Shown here: in pieces, positions 2,999-59,984 of the stretch | Position numbering within the stretch: the first letter of the stretch is position 1 | How the letters are laid out: each line of letters starts with the position of its first letter | Source of the DNA: Periplaneta americana | Taxonomy: Eukaryota > Arthropoda > Insecta > Blattodea > Blattidae | Assembly (NCBI RefSeq): GCF_040183065.1 | Contig: NC_091124.1 | Span: 64,953,501 to 65,017,500 of the forward strand | Reading direction: 5' to 3' | Length of the DNA stretch: 64,000 bases | Program-made: the position numbers and the translations under genes | The notes under the pieces: generated by a model | Told to the model about the DNA's origin: nothing | The model's input: the letters and a program-made list of their open reading frames with translations, nothing else | The model's database searches: none

Positions 2999-3230
2999 CT
3001 CAGATGCAATTAATATTTGAGGAGAAAAATTCGCTCCGGCACCGGGGATCGAACCCGAGTCCTTGGTTCTACGTACCAAGTGCTCTGACCACTGAGCTAC
3101 GCCGAATTCAATCCACAACACCGGACCGAATCCTCCTCCTTCAATGTTTCCCTTTGTGGCCTGACTCCAAGTTAGGCATATAATATGTTGATGTATATGT
3201 CCAATGTCAACTGCCATAATACTAGGAGCG
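2999..3230 (-). repeat. tRNA-like repeat family 2, minus copy
   Basis: A tRNA-like segment at 3,035-3,106 on the minus strand has A box TAGCTCAGTGG, D stem GCTC/GAGC, anticodon-like stem TTGGT/ACCAA with loop ACGTAGA, and B box GGTTCGATCCC. It is followed on the minus strand by sequence (3,107-3,195) shared with the plus copy at 3,317-3,637. The 'tttgaggagaaaaattcgc' at 3,016 is the end shared by both copies. Confidence 0.75.
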
Positions 3231-3316: not shown

Positions 3317-3637
3317 TATTATAGATTTATTTTATTAATTTGTCCTACAGAATAATATCTGTGATATTGACAATTAATATTTGAGGAGAAAATATATACG
3401 TCAACATATATGCCTAACTTGGAGTCAGGCCACAAAGGGAAACATTGAAGGAAGAGGATTCGGTCCTGTGCTGTGGATTGAATTCGGCGTAGCTCAGTGG
3501 TCAGCGGCACTTGGTACATAGAACCAAGGACCCGGGTTCGATCCCCGGCACCGGAGCGAATTTTTCTCCTCAAATATTAATTGTCAATATCACATATATC
3601 ATTCTGTAGGACAAATTAATAAAATAAATCTATAATA
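3317..3637 (+). mobile_element. tRNA-like repeat family 2, plus copy with 74-bp terminal inverted repeats
   Basis: The left arm (3,317-3,390) and right arm (3,564-3,637) are reverse complements over 74 bp with only about two differences. Between them lies a tRNA-like segment (3,483-3,555). Its acceptor pairs TTCGGCG/CACCGGA (6 of 7), the T arm is CCGGG/CCCGG, and the D arm is damaged by extra bases. The minus copy at 2,999 keeps only a short piece of the arm. A tRNA-like core between long inverted repeats is not usual SINE structure. It may be a DNA-transposon-like chimera or the product of an inverted duplication. Confidence 0.7.
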
Positions 3638-12945: not shown

Positions 12946-13686
12946 TACTTACTTACTGGCTTTTAAGGAACCCGGAGGTTCATTGCCGCCCTCACATAAG
13001 GCCGCCATTGGCCCCTATCCTGAGCAAGATTAATCCAGTCTCTATCATCATATCCCACCTCCCTCAAATCCATTTTAATATTCTGGCCTTCCAACTAACA
13101 CTCTATATGCATTTCTGGATTCGCCCATATGTGCTACATGCCCTGCCCATCTCAAACGTCTGGATTTAATGTTCCTAATTATGTCAGGTGAAGGATACAA
13201 TGCGTGCAGCTCTGCGTTGTGTAACTTTCTCCCTTCTCCTGTAACTTCATCCCTTTTGGCCCCAAATATTTTCCTAAGAACCTTATTCTCAAAAACTCTC
13301 AATCTCTGTTCCTCTCTCAATGTGAGAGTCCAAGTTTCATAACCATACACAACAACCGGTAATATAACTGTTTTATAAATTCTAACTTTCAGATTTTTTG
13401 ACAGCAGACTAGATGATAAAAGCTTCTCAACCGAATAATAACAGGCATTTCCCATATTTATTCTGCGTTTAATTTCCTCCCGAGTGTCATTTATATTTGT
13501 TACTGTTGCTCCAAGATATTTGAATTTTTCCACCTCTTCGAAGTATAAATCTCTAACTTTTATAGTTCCATTTCGTACAATATTCTGATCACGAGACATA
13601 ATCATGTACTTAGACTTTTCGGGATTTACTTCCAACCCTATCTCTTTACTTGCTTCAAGTAGAATTTCCGCGTTTTCCTTAATCAT
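12946..13686 (-). pseudogene. LINE (non-LTR retrotransposon) RT C-terminal region, 5'-truncated
   Basis: An open frame of 203 codons (13,686-13,075) begins just after the RT catalytic box, with 'GLEVNPEKSKYMIMSRDQN' and 'FKYLGATVTN', and continues through 'YKTVILPVVVYG.ETWTL' and 'RRLRWAGHVA' to 'YRVLVGRPE'. A deletion then removes the part present in the copies at 39.7 and 45.7 kb ('GKRPLGRPRRRWEDN') and shifts the frame. The rest ('DLREVGYDDRDWI', 'AAMNLRVP') runs to a 3' tail of TAAG repeats at 12,946-12,958. The 5' end, endonuclease and catalytic box are absent. It lies head to head with the next entry. Confidence 0.85.
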
Positions 13687-14545
13687 TTAAACAAGGGGAT
13701 GGGCTGGCCCCAGTTTTATTTAAATTTAGCCTTGGAATATGTAATTAGACAAATGGAAATACAAACAGACTCAACGGTAGTATATAAATCAGTACAACTG
13801 ATAGCTTATGCTGATGATATTGGCATTTTGGGAAGGTCAAAAAAGGCGGTAGAAGAAGTTTTTACAGAATTAGATGGGAAGGCAGCAGAGATAGGATTAT
13901 ATATTAATACAAATAAGACGAAAACAGTTCTTCAAACTAAAAAATCAGTACAAATAAAGTTATCAAACTGAATAATATTGATATTGAAGTAGTAGAAAAC
14001 TTTAAATATTTGGGTTCCATAGTAAACAAGGAGAATGATGAATTAGTTGAGATAAAAGAAAGAATATTACGAGCTAACAAAGTCTATTTTTCGATGATCG
14101 ACTTGTTGAAATCCCAAACAATACATAGGAATAACAAAATACGATTGTATAAAACAATAATAAGACCAATATTGTGCTATGGTTGTGAGACATGCAAAGT
14201 AAGGCGGAGGAAAGATTGAACAGCTTCGAGAGAAGGATTTTAAGATGGATTTTTGGCCCAGTCCAAGATGAGAAAGGATGGAGAATAAGATATAATTCTG
14301 AGTTATATCAGTTATATAAAGATATGGAAGTATCCAGATTTATTAAATTTAGAAGATTACAGTGGGCAGGACATGTAGTGAGAATTGATGAGAAGTGGAT
14401 AGCAAGAAGGTCCTTCACCCAACAAATGCATGGGAAAAGAATAGTTGGAAAGCCCAGGAAAAGATGGGAGGATGAAGTCAGAAAGGATGCCGTGAATATT
14501 CTAGGGATAAGGGCATGGAAAACGAAGGCCAGAGATAGAGAATTA
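13687..14545 (+). pseudogene. LINE RT fragment of a second, related family
   Basis: This starts at the RT motif 'QGDGLAPV' with a frameshift a few codons later, then 'NLALEYVIRQM', the catalytic 'AYADD' (about 13,807), 'EIGLYINTNKTK', 'YKTIIRPILCYGCET' and 'RRLQWAGHVVR'. A second frameshift falls near 14,195. The fragment stops at 'KARDREL' where it joins the fold-back arm, so both ends are missing. It differs from the minus-strand neighbour throughout ('WIARR' against 'NAYRVL'), so the pair is not one twin-primed insertion of a single element. Confidence 0.8.
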
Positions 14546-14730
14546 AACATGCCAAATAATACATTAATGAAACTATTGAAATATAGGTGTACATGTAAAT
14601 AAGCAAGTGCAATGTGAACCATTATAAAACAAGGTGCATGTATGTGTCATATGTTAATACAAGTTTAGAAACACATTGATAAAAATAACAACATTATACA
14701 CTATTATATAAGTTAAAATGTTAAAAATTA

Positions 14731-15014
14731 AAATATACAAACTGTATTGTGCTAAGAACAGGTTGAAACAGAATGTGTGGGTCCCTAGGATACCCAATGT
14801 GGCAACTCGTAGGAATGTTATGCACAACTGCAAGGAAGTAAACGCAAGATGCATGCTTCTTGTGGCAACTATACGTCATATTTTTACACAAATTTAATAT
14901 GTGTTTACTTCCTTGAAGTTGTGCATACCTTCCTATGAGTTGCCACATTGGGTATCCTATGGACCCACACGTTCTGTTACAACCTGCTCTTAGAACAATA
15001 CAGTTTGTATTTTA
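14731..15014. repeat. Palindrome, arms about 113 bp
   Basis: The left arm (14,731-14,843) and right arm (14,903-15,014) are inverted copies, sharing for example 'acaaactgtattgt', 'gggtcc.taggatacccaatg' and 'caaggaagtaaac', with a 59-bp loop. It lies at the centre of the larger fold-back element. Confidence 0.8.
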
Positions 15015-15943
15015 TGCTTGACCATGCCGAAATGTAGTAATTATACACCTGGTAGCAGTCCTTTAATGCATGTCATTAAAGTACACCTATTCATTAAAGT
15101 TCAGGTTTTCGATTATTCTCAGATATGCAATTGAAAGACAACTAGCAAAATGTCACGCAGGCTGGAAATCCAATACTGTCCAAGAAGGTTATGTTCTGTT
15201 ACTATAATAATTAGCGTTAATTATAAATAATATTCAAATAAATTCAATTTGTCATCTCGTTTTTCAATGTCGAATTCAACTTCAAGGTTATATCAAGTTT
15301 AACGCTTATGTTACTCCCTAGATTATATCAAGGTCGTCGACATTCGTTGCCCGGAAAAAATCAATACTTTCGCGTCTGCGCACATCTCACAATTTATGAG
15401 ATTGCACAAGGTCAGTTTGCTCCCCAGTCACATAAGAATAACATGAATACTTATGAATAATTTCAAGTTAGAAATATGGTCGAGCATAAAAAGTCGTATG
15501 AAACTTTCCTATAATGGTAATTAAGATGCTCGTAGGAATATTATGAAACTCGCTTGCACTTGTTTCATAAACATCCTCGCGTCTTCATTACTATCATTAT
15601 AGGCTCGTTGCATAATGTACTATTTAATTTTTAACATTTTGACTTATATAATAGTTTATACATGTATAATGTTATTTTTATCAATGTGTTTTTAAACTTG
15701 TATTAACATATGACACATGCAAGTACCTTGTTTTATAATGGTTCACATTGCACTTGCTTATTTACATGTACACCTATATTTCAATAGTGTCATTAATGTA
15801 CTCATTTGGCATGTCGAATCTGAAGATGACTCAGTTCAGTCGAAAATGTTCATATCCTAATTTAAAAAAAATATGTACAAATGATGTTTAGTTATTTTGT
15901 TCATATATAGATAAGCATAAACTGACCCTCGTATTTGACTTAA

Positions 15944-16519
15944 TTGAATGTTAAGGTTACTTATATTTCATGAAAATTGGACTTCATCATGAAGGCAACC
16001 ATGTAAAATGTAAATGTACATTGATAACTATATGGAATGGGAATATATAGCTATAGAGGCAAATTTGGTTCGTATTTCTATTTATGCCGAATGACTGGCC
16101 TATGTATCAGGATTTAAAGCAATGAAATGTTTGAACTTTATTGTGTACAATTTTTTTTAACTTCAATTTTGTATAATTAGCCTGATTTACTATTTCTGAC
16201 CTAACAACATTTCAATAAATTGCAATGCTTAATATTTAAAAATAAGAAAGGAACATATTTTCCAAACCATTTTATTTTTTCTTGAAGTTTCTACACATTA
16301 AATACAATAAGGAATACACAACAATGAAATTAACTGTGCTAATGCAAGTCAACAGCAAAAAACCAAACAATCTGCAATAACCAAATACAAACATTTCAAC
16401 TTACTTGACTTCTTGAATGTTATTATTACTCAAGTTGCTTGCAACAGGAGTGAAGTTACTATGTGTATATTAATTTCTAACTGACATGACATTGAAAAGC
16501 AGGAGACAAGATATAAACA
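15944..16519. other. No recognisable feature
   Basis: AT-rich sequence between the fold-back element and the cloverleaf array. Nothing is supported. Confidence 0.45.
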
Positions 16520-16578
16520 CAATCGCCTGTCAACAGAGACAGGGGACTGAGAAGTCCAACAGCGCCAAGCTGTGATTG
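16520..16578 (-). repeat. Cloverleaf unit 1
   Basis: All 21 stem pairs are Watson-Crick. In plus-strand coordinates: outer stem 16,520-524/16,574-578, CCTGTC/GACAGG 16,526-531/538-543, GGACT/AGTCC 544-548/553-557 (loop GAGA), ACAGC/GCTGT 559-563/569-573. Confidence 0.8.
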
Positions 16579-16593
16579 GATGAAACACTAAAA

Positions 16594-16658
16594 CAATCGC
16601 CTGTCAATGGTAACAGGGGACTGACGTGGCAGTCCAACAGCAGCTGGTGCTGTGATTG
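16594..16658 (-). repeat. Cloverleaf unit 2
   Basis: Same four stems. The CCTGTC helix has plus-strand C16,605 opposite A16,612, which is G-U on the minus strand. The second and third hairpins can each gain a sixth pair. Confidence 0.8.
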
Positions 16659-16676
16659 GTCACTTGTGGAGAAAAA

Positions 16677-16736
16677 CAATCGCCTGCCTTCGAGACAGGG
16701 GACTAAAGGCAGTCCAACAGCTCTGTGCTGTGATAG
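16677..16736 (-). repeat. Cloverleaf unit 3
   Basis: Most diverged unit. C16,687 opposite A16,695 is G-U on the minus strand. The outer stem has one true mismatch (A16,678 opposite A16,735). Confidence 0.75.
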
Positions 16737-16739
16737 ATA

Positions 16740-16798
16740 CAATCGCCTGTCAGAGGACAGGGGACTGACTACAGTCCAACAGCAACATGCTGTGATTG
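16740..16798 (-). repeat. Cloverleaf unit 4
   Basis: All core stems are Watson-Crick. The GGACT and ACAGC helices each extend to six pairs. It follows unit 3 by only 3 nt. Confidence 0.8.
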
Positions 16799-16833
16799 GT
16801 TGAGATGTGTGAGCAAGTGAGAAATACAAAATA

Positions 16834-16893
16834 CAATCGCCTGTCAGGAGGACAGGGGACCGAGAGTCCAACAGCTGCCTTTAGCTGTGATTG
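16834..16893 (-). repeat. Cloverleaf unit 5
   Basis: The GGACT helix has C16,861 opposite A16,865 (G-U on the minus strand). The ACAGC helix extends to ACAGCT/AGCTGT. It is first in the transcript if transcribed from the minus strand. A degenerate hairpin with the same GGACT/AGTCC stem follows at 16,908-16,927. Confidence 0.8.
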
Positions 16894-16927
16894 TTGGTAC
16901 TACCTTGGGACTTGGCCTGTTCAGTCC

Positions 16928-19900
16928 AGACTGTCGCTGGCTGGTTGGTTGGTCATTGCCACCACCTCATAAGACTACCTGTCACTCATGCTACCCCAAA
17001 CAACCTCTGATTCAGTCAGCTTAGTTAAGATCAGATTTTATTTTTTCAATGACTGAAGCTTGTTAGAATTAATACGACCCTACACCAAATGCTGTAAAAA
17101 GAATTCCCTAGCACATAAACTAAGTGTAGCTTGAAAATAGCTGACAAAATCAAGGGTCTTTAAGAGGGAATAGGATGCCACTGTAATATAATGAAGTACA
17201 GTTTTCGCTCAAAAAACATTTCAGTATTATCCTTATGCCTGAGCCAAATACTTAAACCTTGTATAATGATGTACGCTACCACTTTTCTTGTGTTACAGTA
17301 AAATAAAACTGTGTTGAATTTGTTTGTACAGTGTCCTTTTCCCTTAGACATTACTTGTAAGATCCCAACATGCAATCCTACATGAGCAACACAATGAGCA
17401 TTTAACAAACACAACACAGAAAGCCATGGCTGTCTTGTCTCCTATATTTTAACTGTAAATTCTGTCTCAGAATACGTATTACAACACACACTGCATTACT
17501 CGATTTTACAAACTTGATGTAAAATTGGACGCAAGTCACAATGCCAAATGAAGAAACATACCGGTATTTTCTGAGGTTGCTTTATTTCAATAGAGATAAC
17601 ATGAAAATCAATAGATTGTTGCCTCCACTTGCATTAAAGCATGGGAATGAGTTAAATACAACATTTCAATTGTTTTGATATTGAAAGTATGGATATTCTT
17701 ACTGTTTATCCACTCAAGGCTGCATGTTAGTCATTTACAAATATTAGTTTAGGGCTCATAGAGAAGTGTCACATTGGGATCTTATAAACAAATCCTCATG
17801 CTTTCTTGCCATGTGAGCACAAAAATGGTGCTTACCTCTGTCAGGAGTGAATTAGTAGTAATAAATAATTATTTTAAAATCTTATGCCTTGCTTCACCAA
17901 CCTTTCTTATACTATCAAATCTACTGGAAGCAGAAGTACAGGCCAAATCTTTAACCCTATAACTGCCAGCTGAATTTTTTTTACTACAACTAAATAGATT
18001 TAAGAAAGAATAACTGAAATGCCTACTTGTCTGTAAGTAATATTAACTCACGTATTTCACAATCTTCGAAACATACTCTTGACGACTGTGGATAGTATAA
18101 GAAAGCATCTGCAAAATGAAGTAACTTTTTACTCTTAAACTTCAGACCTATTACTGAAGGTATGTAACTGTGCATTACTGAGAGATGTAGTTGTTAATTC
18201 CAAGATAAATTTTTACTTCAAAATCATTGCTGGAAGATGAAACTGCTGTTTCCTTTATAATTATAAAAATCAATAATGAAATTTTAATCCTCTGAATAAA
18301 CTTTTAAAAAACGTTAATTAAGTTAAATTTTCAGTCTGCTATTGTGCTAAAAGTCATCCCAGAATTTCAAACGTCAGTTAAAAAAAATCAAATATTCACC
18401 AACCACTTCCCACCATTTAATTTTCTTCATTATGTGATTTCACTGTCCATGCAGTACTTCCAGAATTAATTAAGAGACAATCTAGACTGAATATTCTACT
18501 ACTAATAATAACAGTAATTAAAAAAAAACAACAGAAAAAAGAACAAGAAAATCAATACAACCTGAGAAACCACAGGAACTGAAGAATCTTCAACGAGCAA
18601 TTATATCCTGCAGAAGTAAAAATAAAGTATTATTGTAAACTGAAAATCCCACGAAACAAAGATGAGAAAAAAAAATAGTGGTAATTAATAAAAAAAAATA
18701 TATATATACTTTTCCTAGTTGTGGCTAATGTATTTTCATATAATAATTATGAACATAAATGAGTGAAATGTAGTAAGGAAAGCAAATTATTCTGCATGCA
18801 ACAGTTGGTAACTGAATATACAAATGATTCTGTATGACGTTTTAATTTACCAATCTCTGATCAGGAAATCCTATTCCAATGAAATGCAGCTGTTTCAAAG
18901 CCTATTTTTTTTTCATTTTTTAAAAAATGTGTAGTAATTAAAATAACAGAAAATGAATGAATTACTAGTCAAACAAAATGACGCCACAATTATGTATATA
19001 TAAATACTAAACAATTTCAGTCTTTCACGACAGGACTACTTCATCAATAAGTATTTCTTAAGCACACACATATACAAAGTGGACAGGTTGAAATATACTG
19101 TAATCTGGTGATGGAAAGTATGTCCTAGATTTTCAAAACTCTGTCTATTTACATGCATTTCTCAAGTAAGACTATTAATTTGAAATGCATGTCATATTCT
19201 CGTACCCCTTAGAGAATGTTAAATTGACTATAATGTGTTAGTTATGCTATGACTTACAAGAAATATGAATGTATAATTGTATATGTTGACAATAAAAGAT
19301 TGCTAATATGATGTATGAATGACTTGTAACTCCTCATAAGATTAGAATAAAAAAATAATTAAATTTTATACGGCAGAAACTGTGGGTCTGGCAGTCGTAG
19401 GGTCATTGGCAATGAACAATAAAGACAATTCAAATGTAGGAATGAGTGGCATGTGAAACATGACATGAAGACTGTCTTAGGTGACACAGCTTTAAGAACC
19501 AACCAACTGTACATAGAACTCTGCAACACTATTGTAGCCTAATGTATTTTTTTAACACCTGTACCTAAGTTCATGAACCACATCAAGATACAACACATCA
19601 CAAGAATATGCCAGCATTCAGTGAAACTAAGAGTAAACAAGATAAACACATGATATTGCACATTAGTTGTAAGTTTCATAGGTGTGTTAGGTCGAAGTGT
19701 TGCTAATAAAACTTACCTCATTAAATCATTTAATTACTAAGCATCATACACACAAATTTCAATAATTAAATTACTATTACTCTTATTGGTTAAAACGTAC
19801 ACTTCAATTCATGTACATACTAATCTCCTCACTTTTATTGCAAATTTATGTAGGTAAACAGTAAAATAACATTATAATTTAGCACTTCAATTTCCTTCCG

Positions 19901-55564: not shown

Positions 55565-55576
55565 CTGAAAAACAAT

Positions 55577-56640
55577 GCTATATCACGACAAGGACCAAGA
55601 GAGCAGTTACAAAAGCGACCATGACAAGCACAACAAGGACCATGACAAGACAATGGTGCTTGTCGTGATTCTTGTTGTGAGACTTATTGTGGTCCTTCTC
55701 ATTGAGCTCATTGTGGTGCTTACTGTGGTCCTCGTCATGGTCCTTACCTTTATCCTTGTTGTCTTTGTTGTGATCTTTGTCGTGTCTTTGTCTTTATCAT
55801 GGTTGTTATCGCGATTTTTGTTGTCTTTATTGTGGTCCTTATCATGGTACTTTTCCAGTCATGGTCCTCATCGTGGTGTTGGTCCTTGTCATGATTCTTA
55901 TCGTGGTGCTTGTCATGGTCCATATCGCAATCCTTATCATCCTTGTCTTCGTCCGTGCCATGGTCTTTCTCATGTTTTCAGGGTCCTTATTGTAGTTGTG
56001 ACCCATATTGTGGCTCTTATCGTGATCTTTATTATGTTGCTTGTCATGGCCAATGTATTGGTCCTTTTTATGGTTCCAGTCGTTATCCCTGTCTTTGTTT
56101 TGTCCTTATGATCCTTATCATTGTCCTTATTGTCTTTGTTGTGATCCTTGTCACAGTGCTTGTCATTGCCTATGTTGTGAGACTTATTGTGGCCCTGTTG
56201 TTTTTGACACGTTCCTTATCGTGGCCACTGTTGTCTTTTTCATGACCTAATCGTGGTCCTTGTTGTCTTTGTCATGGTCCTTATTACAGTATTTGTTGTC
56301 TTTGCCATGGTCTTGGTCCTTATTGTGGTCTTGGTTGTTATCATGGTCCTTTTGTGGTCCTTATTGTGATCCTTATAATGGTCCTTACTGTAGTGCTTGT
56401 CATGTTCCATGTCATGATTCTTTTTGTGGTCCTTGTCTTTGTCTTTGTTTTTGTCATAGTCCTTACAATGGTAGTTGCTGTTGTCTTTGCCATGATCCTC
56501 ACCGTGGTTTTTGTTATCTTTCTCTTAGTCCATATCATGGTCCTGGTTCTTGTCGTGATCCTTATTGTGTTCCTTGTCTTTGTCCTTTTCGTGGTCCTTA
56601 TGGTCTTTGTCATTGCTCTACATTTATCAAACAGAACAAC
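55577..56640. repeat. Degenerate GTCCTT-based minisatellite, about 1.06 kb
   Basis: Imperfect 12-bp units of the type GTGGTCCTTRTC / ATGGTCCTTATT fill the interval. In the first 65 bp the units lie in the opposite orientation (aaggaccatgacaag), and they switch to the GTCCTT orientation near 55,650, giving a short inverted repeat. Because the unit lacks stop codons in several frames it creates long hydrophobic open frames on the plus strand and Lys/Arg/Thr-rich ones on the minus strand. I treat these as artefacts. Confidence 0.85.
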
Positions 56641-56938
56641 ATTGTTTTTTCCCCTGTGATAAGTGACTTTTTGCCACAAGGTTCCTTCCATACTTTCATA
56701 AAATCTAAAATATCATGGGATGTAATCAGGGACTTGTACCAGAAATGGACAGATAACTGACAACATTTTGACTGGTGAGTAATTTGGAATAGGGTGAAAA
56801 TACGCATGCACTGCCAGATGTCTTCCCTATATGTGGTTAAGTTGATATTGTATGAACCGTGCTATAGAACTTAGACTTCTGCACCTGGAAGAGTCGTCTC
56901 ATTTCTTTTTTGGGGAACTGTACATATCAGCCAGAATC

Positions 56939-58658: not shown

Positions 58659-59984
58659 CGAGGCCTGTCTAAAAAGTATCCGACCTTTAGCCAGAAAAAA
58701 ATATTTCAAATACCTGACGGGGTTGGGACCCTAATCCCCTTCAAAGTAGGCCCCTTGTGCTTGCACACACTTAGCCCACCGATTCTTCCACTGCCGGAAA
58801 CACCTCTGAAAGTCTACTTTTGGAATGGTGTTCAGCTCCGTCATCGCGTTCCGCATTATCTCTTCTCTACTCTCAAAACGGGATCCTTTCAGTGGTGTCT
58901 TCAACTTTGGAAACAACCAGAAGTCGCAAGGAGCCAGGTCTGGAGAGTAGGGAGGTTGGCGAACGGTTGTAATTCCATGTTTGGCCAAGAAAGTGTGGAT
59001 CAATTGGGATGAATGTGCGGGAGCGTTATCGTGATGCAAGTGCCAGTTGTTCGCCGTCCACATGTCTGGTCTTTTGCGCCGAACTGCATCACGGAGTCGC
59101 CAGAGAACATCGTGATAGTACTCCTTTGTCACCGTTTGTCCTTCCGGTGCGTATTCGTGATGCACAATTCCACGGACATCAAAGAAAACAGTCAGCATCA
59201 CCTTGATTTTGCTTCGCACCTGCCGCACTTTCTTCGGCCTTGGAGACTCGGGATGCTTCCATTGCGATGACTGTCTTTTTGTTTCTGCGTCGTACCCGTA
59301 CACCCATGACTCATCTCCAGTTATCACGGTGTTCAGAAACCCAGGATCATTGTTGGCGGTGTCCAGAAGGTCCTATGCAACGTCACGACGGAGGTCTTTT
59401 TGTTCCGGGGACAACTTGGGCACGAATTTCGCAGCCACTCGGTTCATGTTCAAATCATCACGCAAAATTGCATGTGCAGAATCTTTACTCACTCCAACCT
59501 CTTCGGCAATCTCCTGCACGGTCAAACGACGATCTGCCATCACCAAATTTCGCACCCTCTCAACAACAGCTGCACTCCGAGCAGTTTGGGGCCTGCCACA
59601 ACGCTGCTCACTCTCCGCTGATGTGCGGCCATCTTTGAATCGGTTGAACCACTCCTTAATTTGTGTTACACCCATCGCATCTTCCCCAAACACCTGCTGA
59701 ATCTTACGAATTGACTTTGAGAATCACCAAGCTTTTGACAAAATTTGATGCAGTATCTTTGCTTAATTCGTTCAGTCATCTTGCGAGAAAACTAAATCCG
59801 ACAAACACTTAGAACAGCACCTTACTTGGCGATCACCAGCCAGTGACTGGCACAAGCGAATGCAGTGAAAAAATTCAAGCATGCGCATTACGGTTCCTCC
59901 TTCCACCGTGCACAGTGGCGCTGCCTTAGAATCACTACTTTGCGCGGGAAAATTTAAGGTCGGATACATTTTAGACAGGCCTCG
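58659..59984 (-). mobile_element. mariner transposon, nearly full length
   Basis: The terminal inverted repeats cgaggcctgtctaaaaagta and cgaggcctgtctaaaatgta (reverse complement of the right end) continue as 'tccgacctt'. They are flanked by TA (58,657-58 and 59,985-86). Length is 1,326 bp, the usual size for mariner. It carries one transposase gene on the minus strand. Confidence 0.95.
58731..59779 (-). pseudogene. mariner transposase, two lesions
   Basis: The start 'MTERIKQRYCIKFCQKLGD' is followed by a frameshift near 59,725. The frame resumes with 'AMGVTQIKEWFNRFKDGRTS' (helix-turn-helix region) and runs to an in-frame TAG near 59,372. It then stays open for 198 codons with 'VITGDESWVYGYD' (first Asp), 'WHLHHDNAPAHSS' (second Asp) and 'YSPDLAPCDFWLFPKLK' (third Asp). 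The last two catalytic Asp are separated by 34 residues, the D,D34D signature of true mariners. The three catalytic residues are all present. The frameshift and one stop make this copy inactive. Confidence 0.95.

Follow-up and report, generated by a model that had tools for sequence, protein, structure and literature searches.

Structured elements known in the long noncoding RNAs (lncRNAs) of animals are few, and the tandem modules of XIST-A and roX have shaped the understanding of RNA-protein recruitment. SPEN binds the A-repeats of XIST with high affinity only if four or more units are present, and duplexes between repeats have been modelled (PMC10870365, in part). In roX2, the dsRBDs of MLE recognise both shape and sequence (PMC6451107, in part). 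A third kind of element, the lncRNA cloverleaf of mascRNA and menRNA, has a four-way junction without tRNA linkers (PMC11693755, in part). Here, we describe an array of five cloverleaf units in the cockroach Periplaneta americana. It occupies positions 16520-16893 of the window, that is, of the whole 64,000-nt stretch analysed (C8:64953501-65017500), to which all positions below refer. An array of such kind was not found described in the open-licence literature. We consider that it represents, with a probability of about one half, a single-copy noncoding structured RNA acting as a multivalent docking platform.

Anatomy of the units and their pairing

The units are 59, 65, 60, 59, and 60 nt long, and the spacers between them comprise 15, 18, 3, and 35 nt (Table 1). 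With few changes per unit, all five follow the consensus 5'-CAATC-G-CCTGTC-loop-GACAGG-GGACT-loop-AGTCC-A-ACAGC-loop-GCTGT-GATTG, in which an outer stem of 5 bp encloses hairpins 1, 2, and 3 of 6, 5, and 5 bp, respectively. At the junction, single-nucleotide linkers (G and A) occupy two of the four joints; the other two are flush, one between hairpin 1 and hairpin 2 and the other between hairpin 3 and the outer stem. The flush joints suggest two coaxial stacks per unit. The re-located units and their pairing bear out the original prediction of five 59-65-nt units, each with an outer 5-bp stem and three hairpins.

Table 1. Features of the array and its 3' side (window positions; MFE, minimum free energy; + and -, strands)
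Feature	Position	Strand	Description
Unit 1	16520..16578	.	full four-way junction; MFE structure is the junction, -26.2 on +, -22.7 on -
Unit 2	16594..16658	.	longest loops; hairpin 1 has C-A (+) or G-U (-) as its innermost pair
Unit 3	16677..16736	.	weakest unit; outer stem has A-A on + (T-T on -), hairpin 1 has C-A on + (G-U on -)
Unit 4	16740..16798	.	full four-way junction, best fold: -27.2 on +, -25.3 on -
Unit 5	16834..16893	.	short hairpin-2 loop; closing pair is C-A on +, G-U on -
Spacers	16579-16593, 16659-16676, 16737-16739, 16799-16833	.	A-rich, mutually unrelated; 33 A in 71 nt
Possible sixth-unit remnant	16908..16927	.	hairpin-2-like GGACT...AGTCC alone

When the units are aligned by a model derived from units 1-4, 101 of the 105 stem cells (96.2%) form standard pairs on the plus strand, with no G-U among them. 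If the partner 3' columns are slid by 1-3 positions, the fraction of paired cells falls from 96.2% to 31.6-44.4%. Unit 5, left out of this model, was recovered by it at 60.1 bits. Over the window and 100 kb on either side, the unit model found nothing beyond the five units and one weak overlap on the opposite strand (18.9 bits).

We also searched for four-way junctions that are Watson-Crick paired throughout and whose inner stems reach 5 bp or more, with linkers of 0-1 nt and loops of 3-9 nt. The 264 kb of the window and its flanks contain three of them, all within the array, namely units 1, 2, and 4; units 3 and 5 fall outside this set, as one pair is missing in each. Such junctions were seen in none of 3000 shuffles of 16500-16910 and in none of 30 shuffles of the window. 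Lowering the inner-stem minimum to 4 bp added six places of background in the 264 kb; their GC content is 0-36%, and one is a run of TA dinucleotides.

The possible remnant of a sixth unit was rejected as a unit by the unit model (best 6.1 bits). The occurrence of GGACT...AGTCC in the 200-nt 3' flank was reached in 0.32% of 20000 shuffles; the motif is absent from the 200 kb of flanking sequence, and the rest of the window has three further occurrences, at 175, 414, and 767. Further downstream, AATAAA is present on the plus strand at 17302, in an A+T-rich stretch with the same hexamers on both strands.

A protein-coding repeat was considered and rejected. The unit starts modulo 3 are 2, 1, 0, 0, and 1, with frames shifting between units, and the unit lengths are generally not multiples of three. 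A 116-aa open frame on the minus strand (16530-16880) spans the array; the stem blocks carry no stop on this strand, and the frame has no Pfam match.

The array had been set apart from tRNAs on its first description, rightly so, since neither ARAGORN nor the Rfam tRNA model makes a call within it. A small-RNA precursor had also been proposed. Processing of the Dicer/Drosha type requires longer hairpins, and the predicted ones have 5-7 bp, which makes this type unlikely. More generally, we think it very improbable that the cloverleafs are cut out of a small-RNA or tRNA-like precursor, e.g. by RNase P/Z as mascRNA and menRNA are. The units do resemble mascRNA and menRNA in size and in the cloverleaf itself, likewise without tRNA-type linkers (PMC11693755, in part), and on the plus strand the flush joint of hairpin 3 and the outer stem is like that of the T arm and the acceptor stem. 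However, the outer stem has 5 bp, not 7, and the loops, being at chance identity, would not make the T-loop/D-loop contact; on these grounds, a mascRNA-like tRNA mimic was rejected. In addition, Rfam makes no call on the array.

Conservation of stem letters and conflicting strand signals

Pairwise identity between units is 404/420 (96%) in the stems and 20/20 at the junction nucleotides. The loops have 82/191 (0.43), as compared with a mean of 0.39 and a maximum of 0.455 in 200 sets of random letters, and the spacers 48/156 (0.31). This agrees with the earlier claim that the paired positions are nearly invariant and the loops and spacers variable. By contrast, the claim that structure and not sequence is kept finds no support, because none of the 21 pairs is altered on both sides and only 4/105 stem cells depart (three C-A and one A-A on the plus strand). 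The covariation score is 0, a result of weak power as it comes from five units of one genome. The stem letters are thus conserved as well as the fold, and the support for structure rests on complementarity.

The contrast between stems and loops is the pattern that purifying selection on the stems and junction would leave in copies made long ago. Neutral ageing would wear stems and loops equally; hence either the stems and linkers have been selected, or the copies acquired fresh loops when they were put together. Selection on stems and linkers seems the simpler reading. As the loops are saturated, selection for pairing alone should permit swapped pairs, and their absence suggests that the letters matter or that the stems must match those of other units. 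The array shows strongly conserved structure without covariation, and standard covariation tests would miss such cases. It would also offer a case of repeats held identical without gene conversion of the loops.

The strand signals are in conflict. The mispairs favour the minus strand, where the C-A mismatches of the plus strand become G-U, so that a derived 104/105 cells pair; still, this is a weak signal, as all three C-A lying in one direction would arise by chance once in four times (two-sided). The purine bias points to the plus strand, with purines at 53/83 loop positions (43% in the hairpin-3 loops) and at 50/71 spacer positions. The unit energies, lower on the plus strand in four of five units, and the z score of the whole array favour the plus strand as well. 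The AATAAA at 17302 points the same way, though hexamers of this kind are found on either strand there.

Such ambiguity would fit a double-stranded element, and the main rival to an RNA platform is indeed an element acting at the level of DNA, with RNA irrelevant. It might consist of five compound binding sites (four conserved blocks per unit) or form a cruciform, and serve as an enhancer, an insulator, or a site of recombination or replication. The stem letters are conserved, as they are in binding sites, the pairing is equally good in DNA, and some of the unit blocks resemble what we take to be homeodomain/TALE and CCAAT-type sites. On the other hand, binding sites alone fail to predict the nesting of four perfectly complementary stems joined by 0-1 nt. 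For a cruciform to be extruded stably, arms of 5-6 bp in a four-arm layout are short. On balance, we regard the DNA element as rather unlikely.

A single locus among repeats

Searches of the 3.23-Gb genome (3,231,669,367 bases, 91 contigs) with conserved-core patterns yielded 5, 4, 3, and 2 matches, every one a unit of the array; some units were missed by some patterns owing to loop length. The controls yielded 0. A DNA search with 16500-16910 returned the array locus alone. These searches relied on exact patterns and on word seeds, which strongly diverged relatives would escape. Within this reach there are no further copies in the 3.23-Gb genome, and the cruciform-forming satellite suggested earlier is ruled out to the same extent. 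As a single locus, the array is not an expanding repeat.

The 10-mer CAATCGCCTG is found 1792+1870 times in the genome versus 382+381 for the reversed control, being ∼5 times commoner. The unit was absent at 8 examined places with CAATCGCCTG among the 100 matches listed, and the excess of this 10-mer is not counted as evidence for relatives of the array.

The array has no match in Rfam 15 at the gathering score, consistent with the initial statement that it belongs to no known RNA family; below the threshold, 16400-17000 has three matches of 15.5-19.7 bits (E 1-2.3). Matches were found in 24 stretches of viral contigs and in 118 stretches of prokaryote genomes, 80 of which were among the matches listed, with a single match in each. 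The unit model, run on 100 of the 104 viral and prokaryote loci among the matches listed, gave at best 22.2 bits versus 69-82 for the units, and we read these matches as chance. In sum, the array is neither coding, nor a tRNA, nor an Rfam family, nor a repeat family within the reach of the searches.

Both flanks of the array are rich in transposon pieces. A dispersed repeat at 15606-15961 ends ∼560 nt before the array; 41 further places, 74-93% identical to it, were listed in the genome, among them an inverted copy at about 14547-14732. Reverse-transcriptase pieces were noted by eye at 13075-14602 (RVT_1 was below the Pfam cut-off), as was a remnant of a mariner-like transposase at 58731-59723 on the minus strand. 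Degenerate tandem repeats with periods of 11-32 nt occupy 55569-56760 and carry frames rich in Asp/His/Lys/Arg or in Val/Leu on the two strands. Among 20 open frames taken from the window and its flanks, Pfam recognised transposon pieces and weak matches only, and no host gene; these frames were chosen from 58 of at least 85 aa in the window and 930 of at least 60 aa in the 264 kb, so that genes with short exons could escape.

The window also contains tRNA-Tyr-like sequences called by ARAGORN at 497-568, 883-954, and 3033-3106, where Rfam agrees, and at 3483-3557, called by ARAGORN alone. Two have the anticodon GTA and two ATA, and the first two lie in near-identical flanks repeated within the window. 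They look like copies of a tRNA-derived or tRNA-carrying repeat, not like an ordinary gene cluster.

Given these surroundings, the array could be functionless now, either as the relic of a tandem element with more mutable loops and spacers or as a recent patchwork of copies. The repeats around the locus and the possible decayed piece on its 3' side would suit such an origin. Nevertheless, neutral ageing would not leave the stems at 96% and the loops and spacers at chance. No source copy was found in the genome, and the adjoining segments 15962-16515 and 16894-17700 match only themselves in it. We therefore give little credence to a functionless array.

As for the chromosome, the X was considered with a dosage-compensation RNA in mind; a trans-acting RNA gene is not necessarily X-linked. 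In the fly, the ephrin gene is located on Muller element F, and it serves here to mark the ancestral X of insects. Element F has its homologue in the X of the German cockroach (PMC6894488, in part). In P. americana, ephrin is on C10, MUN-domain exons are on C17 and C10, and the array is on C8.

Predicted folding, inter-unit pairing, and relation to known systems

Folded singly, units 1, 2, 4, and 5 have the junction as the minimum-free-energy structure on both strands, and unit 3 on neither. The z scores of units 1-5 are -4.95, -2.22, -0.86, -5.00, and -3.08 on the plus strand and -3.12, -3.69, -1.80, -4.64, and -3.35 on the minus strand. For the whole array, folded as a 384-nt molecule, they are -7.57 and -5.56, respectively. 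The predicted lowest-energy fold of the whole array differs from five cloverleafs. The five-cloverleaf structure has -114.4 kcal/mol versus a minimum of -158.8 on the plus strand, and -106.6 versus -141.7 on the minus strand, the cloverleaf energies leaving out extra pairs available to some units. When the array is folded as a whole, the consensus pairs reach mean probabilities of only 0.24-0.61 on the plus and 0.28-0.64 on the minus strand. When the pair span is limited to 70, the minima are -133.5 (plus) and -124.4 (minus), and the units that keep the full junction are 1, 2, and 4 on the plus strand, 4 and 5 on the minus strand.

The expected numbers of pairs on the plus strand are 51.5 within units and 52.0 between units, i.e. 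about half are inter-unit. In controls with unit-specific stems, for which the stems were shuffled separately per unit with loops and spacers unchanged, they are 85.2 and 8.2 (∼9% inter-unit), and none of 60 such controls, made for the plus strand only, was as high as the array. Identical stems thus enable the units to pair with one another, at a cost to independent folding. Because of this competition, separate cloverleafs would need co-transcriptional folding or a bound protein. Since independent folding is costly with identical stems, the letter-for-letter conservation would require either a partner that reads sequence or inter-unit pairing that is itself useful.

If pairing between units were primary, the identical stems would build a duplex scaffold within or between transcripts, and the cloverleaf would be the form of a unit without a partner. 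This would explain both the excess of inter-unit pairs over the controls, which cover the plus strand only, and the fact that 0 pairs have compensatory replacements. Yet it leaves the invariant one-nucleotide linkers and the junction geometry within each unit unexplained, and we judge it improbable.

We thus return to the multivalent docking platform. The array would sit inside a longer transcript, an lncRNA or an untranslated region. Each unit would take the form of a compact four-way junction, probably during synthesis; the outer stem and hairpin 3 may make up one stack, hairpins 1 and 2 the other. The putative partner would most likely be a protein that binds double-stranded RNA or junctions. 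It would recognise the shape together with the letters of the stems, and five copies on short flexible spacers would provide avidity. The working form may partly be an inter-unit duplex, as modelled for the A-repeats of XIST. The original prediction of a cis-acting multivalent RNA array stays the best reading in this form, although it draws no support from covariation and has to contend with the competing inter-unit pairing. More tentatively, and with some doubt, one may see here a class of noncoding RNA new to animals: a module of an lncRNA or UTR, present in a single copy, whose five near-identical junctions on flexible spacers could switch between cloverleafs and inter-unit duplexes. Coming from an early-branching lineage of winged insects, a repeated junction-based module of this kind would make a small testable case for the joint roles of multivalency and stem sequence in RNA recognition.

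The comparisons that follow draw, for the lncRNAs, on parts of the papers cited above. Similar to tRNA, each unit is a cloverleaf with three hairpins. Unlike tRNA, it has an outer stem of 5 bp, free loops, and joints of 0-1 nt. The mascRNA and menRNA cloverleafs are closer, as lncRNA elements of similar size with the same kind of junction; however, they have a 7-bp acceptor stem and conserved contacts between the T-loop and D-loop, while in the array the outer stem has 5 bp, the loops are free, and the unit is present five times in tandem. Like exon 3 of roX2 in Drosophila, the array combines several structured domains with flexible linkers, but the roX2 domains are stem-loops and the units of the array are near-identical cloverleafs. 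With the A-repeat of XIST, a mammalian lncRNA, it shares the tandem arrangement of short structured cores and variable linkers. It differs in sequence and fold, and C8 bears no sign of being an X by the positions of ephrin and the MUN-domain exons; moreover, the unit of the cockroach array, known here from sequence, is a complete four-way junction.
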